Source of the DNA: Armatimonadota bacterium
GTDB lineage: Bacteria > Armatimonadota > Fimbriimonadia > Fimbriimonadales > Fimbriimonadaceae
Length of the DNA: 64,000 nt
Direction of reading: 5' to 3'
NCBI GenBank assembly: GCA_018268395.1
Contig: JAFDWQ010000010.1
Location: 62,001-126,000 of the forward strand
Positions 43,747 through 55,074 of this stretch are shown here, one piece after another. The number at the start of each line of letters is the position of its first letter. Position 1 is the first letter of the stretch. The notes below the pieces were generated by a model, which was not told the DNA's origin, did no database searches, and was given only the letters and a program-made list of their open reading frames with translations. Made by a program: the position numbers and the translations under genes.

Positions 43747-43814
43747 GGCGAGGCTTCAACCCTCGTTCCGGACCGGTGTCCGTCCGTTTCTTTTCCCGTC
43801 CCGAACGGTCCGGA
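43747..43814 (+). repeat. 68-bp direct repeat, right copy
   Basis: Near-identical partner of 42434-42501, 1313 bases away. Its last 18 bases are also the beginning of the 21-bp-period array at 43797-43964, so this copy is joined to the array. Confidence 0.95.
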
Positions 43815-43964
43815 ACCGTTTTCCAAGAGAGTTTTTTTGTTCCAGAAGAGACTTTTGCCGTTCCCGAACGGTCCGGGACCGTGTTCCAAGATTCTTCTCT
43901 TGTTCGAGAAGAGACTTTTGTCGTTCCCGAACGGTCCGGTGCCGTTTTTCAAGGGTGTTTTCTT
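43797..43964 (+). repeat. 21-bp-period tandem array with A-B-C higher-order 63-bp unit
   Basis: Eight consecutive 21-base units without a single length change. Three subtypes alternate in order C-A-B-C-A-B-C-A. C units (43797, 43860, 43923) contain CCCGAACGGTCCGG. B units (43839, 43902) contain GAGAAGAGACTTTTG-type sequence, B1 with AGAAGAGACTTTTG. A units (43818, 43881, 43944) start GTnTTnCAAG and end in T-rich runs. C units hold short inverted repeats around GGTCCGG and are followed by T-rich sequence. All three forward frames are open, so coding cannot be excluded by stops alone. It lies about 60 bases upstream of a TTGACA box for the Fn3 gene. Confidence 0.92.
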
Positions 43965-44025
43965 CTTTGGAAACGTCGGTGACCCTTGGGCGACGGGCCC
44001 CGACCGGGCGGCGGGCGTCCGAAAC

Positions 44026-44055
44026 TTGACACGATTCGGTACGAGGGCCTAAGGA
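44026..44055 (+). promoter_or_regulatory. Putative promoter of the first Fn3 gene
   Basis: TTGACA (44026-44031) is followed after 18 bases by a weak TAAGGA (44050-44055), 29 bases before the ATG at 44085. The 21-bp array ends about 60 bases upstream of the -35 box. Confidence 0.4.
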
Positions 44056-44084
44056 ATTTCGTCCAGGGCTCCGATGACTGCTGT

Positions 44085-44735
44085 ATGCCGACTTATTATC
44101 ATACGAAGAAGTCCAATTTCGCGGCCTGGATGGCGAACTTCCAGTCCGTCGCAGCCGCCAACGCCTTAGCTTTACAGCTCGATGTGAGCGAACTTTCCGA
44201 AATCGCCGCGGCCAACACGCAGTTCGCCGCTTCCTTCAGCGCCCAAGAGACGGCCCGTGCGGCGGCGAAAGGCGCGACCGCCCTCTGCGACCAAGAATGG
44301 TCCGAGGCGCTCGCGGTCGTCGCGAAGTACAACGCCCAGTTCCAGGCGATCCCCAACATCAACCCGGCCCTGCTCGGACAGCTCGGTCTGAACGTCCCCG
44401 GCGGGGGCGGCACCGTGCCCGTCTTCGCCCCGAGCGACCTCAGCGCGACGGGCAGCAGCAACGGTGTCAACGCGCTCCGCTGGAACAGGAACGGCAACGA
44501 GAGCGGCACCACCTATGTCATCGAGGCCAGCTACGGCGAGTCCGGCGCGTGGCAGATCGTGGACAACTCTTCTCGCACGAAGTTCGACCACGACGGCCAG
44601 ACCCCGGGTCAGTTCGTCCGTTACCGCGTCTACGCCCAGTGCGGCGCGACGAAAAGCGCACCTTCGGGCACGGCCTCGGTCTACGACCCGGGCGCGGGGC
44701 TGAGCCTGGTCGATGGCGGCCAACAGGCGGCCTGA
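44085..44735 (+). CDS. N-terminal helical domain plus fibronectin type III protein, paralog 1
   Basis: The 216-residue protein has an Ala-rich helical N-terminus (residues about 8-95, ending in EALAVVAKYNAQFQAIPNINP). A Gly/Pro linker follows, then one fibronectin-III-like sandwich (residues about 118-200: PSDLSATGSSNGVNALRW to VRYRVYAQCGATKSAPSG). There is no signal peptide. It is paralogous to 52118-52762 along its full length (shared AKYnaqF..NP, Lq.L, TPG.fv.yRV). ATG 44085 was chosen because conservation with the paralog starts there; no good ribosome site is visible. Function is unknown. Confidence 0.8.
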   Translation: MPTYYHTKKSNFAAWMANFQSVAAANALALQLDVSELSEIAAANTQFAASFSAQETARAAAKGATALCDQEWSEALAVVAKYNAQFQAIPNINPALLGQLGLNVPGGGGTVPVFAPSDLSATGSSNGVNALRWNRNGNESGTTYVIEASYGESGAWQIVDNSSRTKFDHDGQTPGQFVRYRVYAQCGATKSAPSGTASVYDPGAGLSLVDGGQQAA

Positions 44736-50704: not shown

Positions 50705-51757
50705 ATGTCCTCCGCCGTCATCATTCCTCGCCTTGTGGCGACGAACGTGCTCGCGTCAGCGTTGATCTCGCTCGCGCCATGTGCCCCGCCGCGATATTTG
50801 TTGGAGCCGATCGAACCCACGTCCCCTGGAAGGATGAGTCTTAGCGGCTTGGACGATCAGAACACGGTCTACGGAAGCCTCTACGACCCGGTCACGCGGA
50901 CCTTTAAGCCGTTTTCGAAAGGCTCCAACGGTGAGTCGATCCTCGATTCCGGGCCCTACGGCCAGGGCGTGATCAGCGCCGTGACGGGACCCATCGGCTT
51001 CGGGAGGTGTTTTGACGCAGTGTCGACCCGGGCCGCCTTCTGGCAAAACGGCACGCTCCATCTGATCGGGCCTACCGACGGCTTCGAAATGGCCGAGGCC
51101 TACGGCGGCGCTCCGGACACCGCGATCTACGGCTACGCCCGGTCGGGCACGGAAGAGGGCGAAGTCATGTTGCGAAACGGCACCATGACGCCTTTACCGT
51201 TCCCTCACCACCAGTTCGAGCAGGGCCGAGGGGTCGCCGCCGCGAACGCAAAAGGGAAGGCGGTCGGCTTTGACTCCTTCGTTCCGACCATCATCTCCAA
51301 CCCCCTGAGTTGGGACTTCGGCGTGCTGACCGTCCACCCGGCCTTTGAAGACTACGCCTACGCCGTCGACGTGAACGACAACGGCGAGTTCGTCGTCAAC
51401 AGCAGCGACAACGGCGGGTACCACTATTCACGGGTCTTTTCGAACGGCGTCTGGACGCGACTGCCGGGGTTACAGTTCGGAGGAAACGGCGTCCTAGGCG
51501 GCGCGATCAACGATCGCGGGACCGTCGTGGGCAGAGTGGACAGGGTCGTCGGCACCGACCGAGGAATGTCGGTCTGGACGAAGGACGGCACCTACTCCCG
51601 GTACCCGTTCCTCGACCTCGTTCTGTTCAACCCGGGGTGGGAGATCACCGAACTGACCGACATCAACAACAAGGGCGTCATTCTCGGACGCTATAAGTCC
51701 GGCTCACTGTCCAAGTACTTTCTCGCCAAGCCGTTGTCCCGGAGTGCCGGATCCTGA
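50705..51757 (+). CDS. HAF-repeat-like secreted protein
   Basis: The 350-residue protein starts with a hydrophobic leader (RLVATNVLASALISLAPC). It carries repeats of the type DVNDNGEFVVNS, AINDRGTVVGRV and DINNKGVILGRY, which match the extracellular HAF repeat pattern (Asn-Asp/Asn-Gly-x-Val-x-Gly). They probably build a beta-propeller. No PEP-CTERM tail is present. The gene is driven by the TTGACA/TACAAT promoter directly at the start codon and ends just upstream of the second 21-bp array. Confidence 0.72.
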   Translation: MSSAVIIPRLVATNVLASALISLAPCAPPRYLLEPIEPTSPGRMSLSGLDDQNTVYGSLYDPVTRTFKPFSKGSNGESILDSGPYGQGVISAVTGPIGFGRCFDAVSTRAAFWQNGTLHLIGPTDGFEMAEAYGGAPDTAIYGYARSGTEEGEVMLRNGTMTPLPFPHHQFEQGRGVAAANAKGKAVGFDSFVPTIISNPLSWDFGVLTVHPAFEDYAYAVDVNDNGEFVVNSSDNGGYHYSRVFSNGVWTRLPGLQFGGNGVLGGAINDRGTVVGRVDRVVGTDRGMSVWTKDGTYSRYPFLDLVLFNPGWEITELTDINNKGVILGRYKSGSLSKYFLAKPLSRSAGS

Positions 51758-51789
51758 CCGAGAGCCCGGTCTGTCTCGTGACGCAGGAG

Positions 51790-52020
51790 TGGAACAGGAC
51801 CGAGGGATAAGAAGAACATTCCCCCGGGATTGAAGAAAAAATCCCCGGAAAGAAAGAACATTCCCCTGGGTTTAAAGAAAAAAACCGGGGGAAGGAAGAA
51901 AATTTCCCCGGTTTTAAAGAAAAGAGCCGAGGGAAAGAGAAAAATCTCCGGGGGAACAAAGAGGGCTTCCCGGGAAAAGAAGAAACTTTCCGCGGATTCT
52001 TTTCTCTTTTCCCGGGGAAA
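51790..52020 (+). repeat. 21-bp-period purine-rich tandem array with phased A-tracts
   Basis: Eleven consecutive 21-base units (unit starts 51790, 51811, 51832 and so on to 52000) keep exact register over 231 bases. The consensus is a purine run GAAGAAAAnn, then a C4G2-type palindromic core (CCCCGG or CCCGGG), then AAA/TTT. Units 1-4 alternate two subtypes (AACATTCCCC and AAAAAAnCC). A-tracts of 4-7 bases recur every 21 bases, equal to two helical turns, which predicts curved DNA. Unit 0 (51790-51810) and unit 10 (52000-52020, T-rich) are diverged ends. No spacers exist between units. Confidence 0.93.
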
Positions 52021-52117
52021 CGGGAGAGAAAAGTCGGTGATCGCCCTAAAGACACACGGAAACGGGCCGATGAAGAATGCTAGGCGTGTGCCGGTGGCAG
52101 CCTAGGGATCGACAGTC

Positions 52118-52762
52118 ATGTCCTACATTACCGAACTATCGTCTGACGGGAGTCTCAATACCGCACTGGCCAACTTCAATGCCCTGTGTGTTCAATTTAC
52201 GGCCCAACTTTCCCTGCAGCCGGCTGATCTGATCGCGATCGCCGCTGCAGCGAGCCAGTTCAACACGGCGCTCAACGCAGCGACTGCCGCGAAGCAGACA
52301 TCGAAGGGAAGCGTGGAGGCGAAAGACGTGCAGAAGGCTGCGAGCAAAGCCGTTATCGCCAAGTATGCGAAGATCTTCCGCGCCAATCCGGCGGTCTCCG
52401 ACCAGCTCCTGGAGCAGCTCATGCTGCCCCACCACAAGACCCCGGGCGCAAAGACCCCGCCGACCCAACCGCTCGACCTGGTCGGCAGCGCCGACGGGCA
52501 GGGGCTCGTCACGCTCAAGTGGAAGCGCAGCGGCAATATCGAGGGGACGAACTTCCTCGTGGAGGCGCGCACCGCGCCTACAGGGGAATGGACGATCATG
52601 GGGAGCACGACCCGCGTCAAAACGACCTTCCAAGGCACGCCGGGCGACTACCTCGCCTTCCGCGTGACGGCCGTACGGAACAAGCAGTCCTCTCCGCCGA
52701 GCGTGCCGTTCGTGCTGTGGGACGGTTCGACGGGCGAAGGCTTCGAACTGAAAGTGGCCTGA
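52118..52762 (+). CDS. N-terminal helical domain plus fibronectin type III protein, paralog 2
   Basis: The 214-residue protein has an N-terminal helical region (about residues 10-105, with LNTALANFNALCVQF and KAVIAKYAKIFRANPAV), a Pro-rich linker and one Fn3-like domain (PLDLVGSADGQGLVTLKW to GDYLAFRVTAVRNKQSSPPS). It aligns over its length with 44085-44735. There is no signal peptide and no obvious Shine-Dalgarno or -10 box. It starts 97 bases after the 21-bp array. Possible roles include a phage-tail-like or surface-assembly subunit, but this is speculation. Confidence 0.8.
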   Translation: MSYITELSSDGSLNTALANFNALCVQFTAQLSLQPADLIAIAAAASQFNTALNAATAAKQTSKGSVEAKDVQKAASKAVIAKYAKIFRANPAVSDQLLEQLMLPHHKTPGAKTPPTQPLDLVGSADGQGLVTLKWKRSGNIEGTNFLVEARTAPTGEWTIMGSTTRVKTTFQGTPGDYLAFRVTAVRNKQSSPPSVPFVLWDGSTGEGFELKVA

Positions 52763-52786
52763 CACAGCCGCTGCGCGAAGGGAGAT

Positions 52787-52973
52787 GGGGCGAGGGGAGG
52801 AGGGCACCGTCTTGCGGCCATTGAGACACGCCCTCACCCCGCCCCCTCTCCTCCTTACCCTGTCAACCGGGGGGTTGGTCTGACAAAGAAAGAGGTGGGT
52901 CCTGCCGGATCTCCACCCCCTAGCCCCCTCCTCATGTGACCGGACAAGACACCCAGCCACACGAGGAGGGGGG
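52787..52973. repeat. Purine/pyrimidine-rich inverted repeats between Fn3 gene and groL
   Basis: GAGGAGGGGG-type blocks occur on alternating strands. A perfect 10-bp pair is CCCCCTCCTC (52924-52933) with GAGGAGGGGG (52963-52972). A longer imperfect pair joins 52787-52805 with 52830-52856. They sit between convergent genes and probably terminate both transcripts. Confidence 0.6.
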
Positions 52974-52981
52974 AGCGGACT

Positions 52982-55074
<2,093 letters not shown>

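Follow-up and report, generated by a model that had tools for sequence, protein, structure and literature searches.

Many genes of a family of small proteins in the phylum Armatimonadota were found to be preceded by tandem arrays whose period is, with few exceptions, a multiple of 21 bp and whose unit sequences are largely unrelated, at many loci beside a recognisable sigma-28-like promoter. It is proposed, with what is judged to be an even chance of being correct, that such an array serves in cis as an upstream, helically phased module of the sigma-28-class (flagellar-type) promoter of a helical-plus-Fn3 gene, and that helical phase is what allows it to act, at the level of DNA.

Array 1 and its downstream gene

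The window, i.e., the whole stretch of 64,000 nucleotides that was analysed, contains a first locus with the following features:

51799..52020, no strand assigned: array 1, 9-11 units of 21 bp with a 42-bp higher-order alternation (TRF; autocorrelation against shuffles)
52046..52073, plus strand: sigma-28-like promoter CTAAAG-N14-GCCGATGA, its -10 box ~45 bp before the ATG (matrix scans)
52118..52762, plus strand: Fn3 gene with a 214-aa product (ORF; weak Pfam fn3 match; AlphaFold model; Foldseek; 12 family members in the genome)

Array 1 is real and far above chance. Across its 231-bp span (51790-52020, 11 x 21), self-matching reaches 0.50 at lag 21, 0.65 at lag 42 and 0.54 at lag 63, against a maximum of 0.39 and a mean of 0.30 at these lags in 1000 dinucleotide-preserving shuffles. 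A preliminary description of the locus had reported eleven units in an exact 21-base register, of which the array itself stands, but the edge units (51790-51810 and 52000-52020) fit more poorly, leaving a robust core of ~51805-51995, and the 42-bp period is stronger than that of 21 bp because the units alternate. TRF accordingly reports both, the 21-bp period for 51804-51879 and the 42-bp period for 51799-51943. An A-rich half and a CCCCGG/CCCGGG core had also been ascribed to each unit, which proved too general: runs of at least four A or T occur in seven of the eleven units, and a CCGG/CCCGGG/CCGCGG core in eight. The exclusion of a CRISPR was correct, and a CRISPR or guide array was rejected on the grounds that the 21-bp units are contiguous, without spacers, and that array 1 has no match at E<=10 in the rest of the genome except its own reverse strand. 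A phage or plasmid origin was likewise rejected, no relative being present in phage, plasmid and viral collections.

The product of the gene at 52118 consists of a helical N-terminal domain of ~100 residues and a C-terminal Fn3-like domain. In its AlphaFold model (mean pLDDT 75.7), four helices accompany an Fn3-like sandwich, for which Foldseek returned Fn3 domains as matches. A Pfam search with the protein returned no family above cut-off, the fn3 match being weak, and no signal peptide is evident on inspection by eye.

Two GC-rich hairpins 3' of the Fn3 gene (52773-52859 and 52924-52972) match microRNA families by chance and are probably terminator-like; these chance matches were all that Rfam gave, and a known RNA family was rejected. 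Further along the window (54620-54683), a short 9-bp repeat (GTTCGGGTG), unrelated to the 21-bp arrays, lies directly 5' of the groEL start.

A second array and the paralogues in the genome

A second array, absent from the preliminary description, is located 5' of a paralogue of the 52118 gene:

43790..43967, no strand assigned: array 2, 21-bp register with a 63-bp higher-order unit (TRF; autocorrelation)
44049..44077, plus strand: sigma-28-like promoter of the paralogue, CTAAGG-N15-TCCGATGA (matrix scan, recovered in a second scan)
44085..44735, plus strand: paralogue of the Fn3 gene, 216 aa (family search)

Array 2 self-matches at 0.81 at lag 63 and is unrelated in sequence to array 1. Twelve members of the family are encoded in the whole genome (3.72 Mb). 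Arrays precede six of them, no two with the same unit; L003 and L007 lie in the window, and L004, L005, L006 and L012 elsewhere. Separately, a dispersed palindromic repeat, GGTCCCTCCGCTCCCTGCGGTCGGTCGGGATGACGT...ACGTCATCCCGAGCGAAGTCGAGGGACCTC, is present in several copies adjoining an assembly gap at L014:2044-2880 (G000:C1), and is also found 5' of L010 and L011.

Distribution and period of the arrays

Family members were sought at the level of genus, family, class and phylum, and 108 upstream regions were screened for every period from 10 to 100; an array was called where the self-matching of a segment at its best lag was 55% or more. The assemblies are of mixed quality, and loci of one genome are not independent. 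On this basis, arrays were found upstream of 63 of the 108 family members, and the best lag was 21, 42, 63 or 84 in 60 of the 63, the other three being 30, 75 and 99. A lack of periodicity at homologous loci and free drift of the period, either of which would contradict the preliminary description, were looked for in these relatives, and neither held. A second fetch returned 18 arrays (16 of them at new loci), all at multiples of 21, and the rule extends to other families and classes of the phylum. A contig scan with poor N-terminal patterns returned only Armatimonadetes, Chthonomonadaceae and Fimbriimonadales records, all of one phylum.

The arrays are also specific in position. Upstream arrays were present at 28 of 47 loci and true downstream arrays at none, the single apparent one being rejected as an N run (assembly gap). 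In 464 kb of background, a sample from two genomes (320 kb of one and 144 kb of another) of which ~400 kb is other sequence, the two window arrays were the only repeats with a period that is a multiple of 21. About 40% of the family members have no detectable array, and many of these have the promoter; the array is therefore not required. The link of array 1 to the 52118 gene, suggested in the preliminary description, is supported and recurs across the phylum. Since the six arrays of one genome have six unrelated units, a shared sequence-specific regulator is unlikely.

The sigma-28-like promoter

The consensus recognised by sigma-28/FliA is TAAAG-N14-GCCGATAA. At many family loci, CTAAAG-N14/15-GCCGATAA is found between the array and the start codon. 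A promoter score of at least 11 out of 14 was reached in 45 of 101 leaders, compared to 5.7% of shuffles and to none of the same 101 leaders on the reverse strand, and the spacing of the -35 and -10 boxes is sharply peaked at 14-15. When the site matrix was run over the 464 kb, eleven matches were obtained; both window genes are among them, as are a PilZ gene and a flagellar rod gene (Flg_bbr_C) that lies ahead of FlgG-like, FlgH, FlgI and FlgK genes. The site at 52046..52073 was the second best among all matches, and was also recovered with a matrix trained on array-less loci. With the latter matrix, 22 of the 49 array loci showed a site that follows or adjoins the array, mostly 53-59 bp ahead of the start.

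The promoter is visible at similar rates with and without an array (18 of 39 array loci versus 21 of 62 others), and the two elements are therefore separable. The other sigma-28-like genes of the sample (flagellar, PilZ) have no 21-bp array. Of 113 genomes of the class, 106, the present one among them, have a FliA/WhiG sigma factor that scores above the curated cut-off; here it is located at G000:C1:432196. Judged from these sequence data, the sites at the family loci are presumably active and sigma-28-dependent; co-expression of the Fn3 family with flagellar genes is a plausible consequence, and export of the protein through the flagellar apparatus is a speculation.

At two orthologues of another class, the best promoter-like match lies upstream of the array. 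In these sister species, the conserved sigma-28-like site CTAAAG-N15-ACTGATAA (L167:996-1030, and the same site in L168) precedes the array, which may therefore be transcribed there, a point against the proposed upstream module. The strongest sigma-28-like promoter of the 464-kb scan belongs to a gene for MAKVKLSAFSTALSGKLGNLTFSNTKEG... (L187:3459-4172, G039:C3), which has neither a Pfam match nor a 21-bp array, and which possibly represents a second unknown family of the same regulon.

Sequence turnover versus register

Array units are unrelated even between family proteins that are 85-93% identical, including the tandem neighbours L066 and L085. Similarity between units of different arrays is at null level except for one orthologue pair: a common unit was seen only in the sister-species orthologues, the arrays of which align without gaps. 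Within 49 arrays, successive units differ by 1487 mismatches as against 15 register shifts, the latter being confined to five arrays and absent from the other 44; the banded model used to detect indels recovered 38 of 40 planted ones. In general, intergenic indels are not as rare as in these arrays. Selection against indels is therefore suggested, partly on the strength of that general knowledge of intergenic indel frequency, and the constraint appears to be on phase rather than sequence, as the preliminary description had proposed and as the recurrent period and the unrelated units also indicate.

Curvature and dyad symmetry

Curvature predicted with a wedge model is 6.8 degrees per turn for the arrays as against 2.5-2.6 for shuffles and for flanks; breaking the period lowered the value to 1.9. 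Relative to the dinucleotide-preserving null, array curvature is only marginally higher (Wilcoxon p 0.054), indicating that the match of the period to two helical turns, rather than a special placement of A-tracts, accounts for most of the increase. The phased A-tracts of the preliminary description apply to array 1 in part: AT phasing over 49 arrays is not above null, for which reason A-tract phasing was rejected as a general rule, and most homologous arrays have neither A-tracts nor the CCCGGG core. At 21 discovery loci, the direction in which the array bends with respect to the promoter departed from randomness (p about 0.002), but this was not robust: at eight further loci the corresponding value was about 0.07, and the effect was not reproduced with a second wedge model.

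The units lean weakly towards dyad symmetry (Wilcoxon p 4.5e-5 against the dinucleotide null, individually weak), a signal that looked stronger under a composition-only null than the dinucleotide null allows. Self-complementarity does not differ between the two strands (mean z of -1.84 and -1.94), a result more in keeping with recognition at the DNA level than with RNA; strand-specific RNA hairpins were rejected on account of this symmetry.

Proposed function and alternative explanations

The smallest whole-number period equal to whole helical turns is 21 bp (2 x 10.5), and for this reason every unit of the proposed upstream module would present the same face of the helix, so that small bends would sum rather than cancel. 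A directionally bent or one-faced stretch would thereby form directly 5' of the -35 box, where it may contact or wrap RNA polymerase directly, or may offer a platform to a dimeric DNA-binding protein that is oligomeric and of weak sequence specificity. The unit sequence would therefore be free to change provided that indels stay out. It is from the features described above that an effect of array phase on transcription, and either of these DNA-level mechanisms, is inferred. A more far-reaching version, put forward tentatively and considered rather doubtful, is that of a sequence-independent regulatory code, in which selection acts on helical phase and not on letters, a sigma-28-class promoter could make use of any 21-bp repeat upstream of it, and whole arrays are exchanged for others in evolution.

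A functionless origin is considered unlikely. According to this explanation, the 21-bp period is a mutational signature, left when slippage or copying (e.g., of DNA bound by a protein that covers two helical turns) yields tolerated duplications, with units turning over through repeated birth and in-register homogenisation. The unrelated units at near-identical genes would be expected from such a process, and the 42- and 63-bp higher-order units would represent in-register copying. However, a general process also predicts 21-bp arrays elsewhere, and none was found in the ~400 kb of other sequence or downstream of family genes.

That the array acts as RNA, being transcribed and folding into tandem hairpins or small RNAs, appears improbable. 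In its favour, the predicted folding of both arrays in the window is better than that of shuffles (z of -3.2 and -3.4), a promoter-like site precedes the array at the two other-class loci, and related 52-nt arrays of Bacillus coagulans have been reported to be transcribed (PMC8625621). Against this, the equal self-complementarity of the strands is what DNA dyads predict, most promoter matches lie between array and gene, and the arrays have no Rfam match.

An insulator against upstream transcription, or a terminator, is a decidedly improbable role. It would suit the often palindrome-like units and the 30 of 40 scorable loci at which the longest upstream ORF is on the same strand, but at the other ten that ORF is on the opposite strand, and a terminator requires no fixed 21-bp period, indel avoidance or gene-family specificity. 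The idea that the arrays encode a heptapeptide-repeat protein (21 bp being seven codons) is already largely refuted and very improbable: open frames do run through many arrays (e.g., 51678-52055 on the minus strand; 3.4 of 6 frames versus 2.7 in column-permuted arrays), but, in line with the preliminary description, codon-level selection is absent, with no codon-position signal at p<0.05 in any of 41 arrays (mean p 0.57), and the window frame has no family match.

Comparison with known systems

The proposed upstream module shares traits with several known systems. Tandem operators of ArgR or Lrp are bound by oligomeric regulators and have a consensus that is common within a genome. The arrays resemble them in that palindrome-like sites recur about every two turns on the same face of the helix, whereas the six arrays of one genome lack a common consensus. 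Curved-DNA upstream elements of bacterial promoters consist of phased A-tracts; the arrays are similarly helically phased DNA directly 5' of the -35 box with a predicted net curvature, but are without consistent A-tracts, their phase being set by the period and their sequence almost arbitrary. As regards promoters of the sigma-28/FliA regulon, the architecture TAAAG-N14-GCCGATAA is shared, and a flagellar rod gene was matched in the same scan, although a spacing of 15 is commoner here than the canonical 14.

To the authors' knowledge, constant-length, free-sequence bacterial tandem repeats have so far had no known function. Bacterial tandem repeats that are constant in length (20-21 or 52 nt), variable in sequence and for the most part non-coding were described by Subirana and Messeguer, who proposed nucleoid proteins or small RNAs for them and also remarked on the two helical turns (PMC8161180). 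The Armatimonadota arrays fit this class in their fixed length, unconserved sequence and non-coding nature; the 20-21-nt length and the occurrence of several unrelated families of the same length per genome are further likenesses. A short sequence common to the repeats of one species is another mark of the class; compared as whole units, the arrays of the present genome are unrelated. Those repeats are reported genome-wide in Bacillus and other groups, with no gene association found in the literature consulted, whereas the present arrays are linked, across Armatimonadota, to the region upstream of a single protein family, beside a sigma-28-like promoter. Constant-length, variable-sequence arrays are thus already known (PMC8161180; J. 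Bacteriol. 2020), and it is the link to a gene family and promoter that is, to the authors' knowledge, new. Such arrays now have a fixed address, in many species and with many natural replicates, which turns a satellite puzzle into a testable promoter question; if phase alone is functional, they would constitute a regulatory element invisible to sequence-motif searches. What is added to the known repeats is therefore a gene family, a promoter, absence elsewhere in the sample, and the contrast between indels and substitutions.
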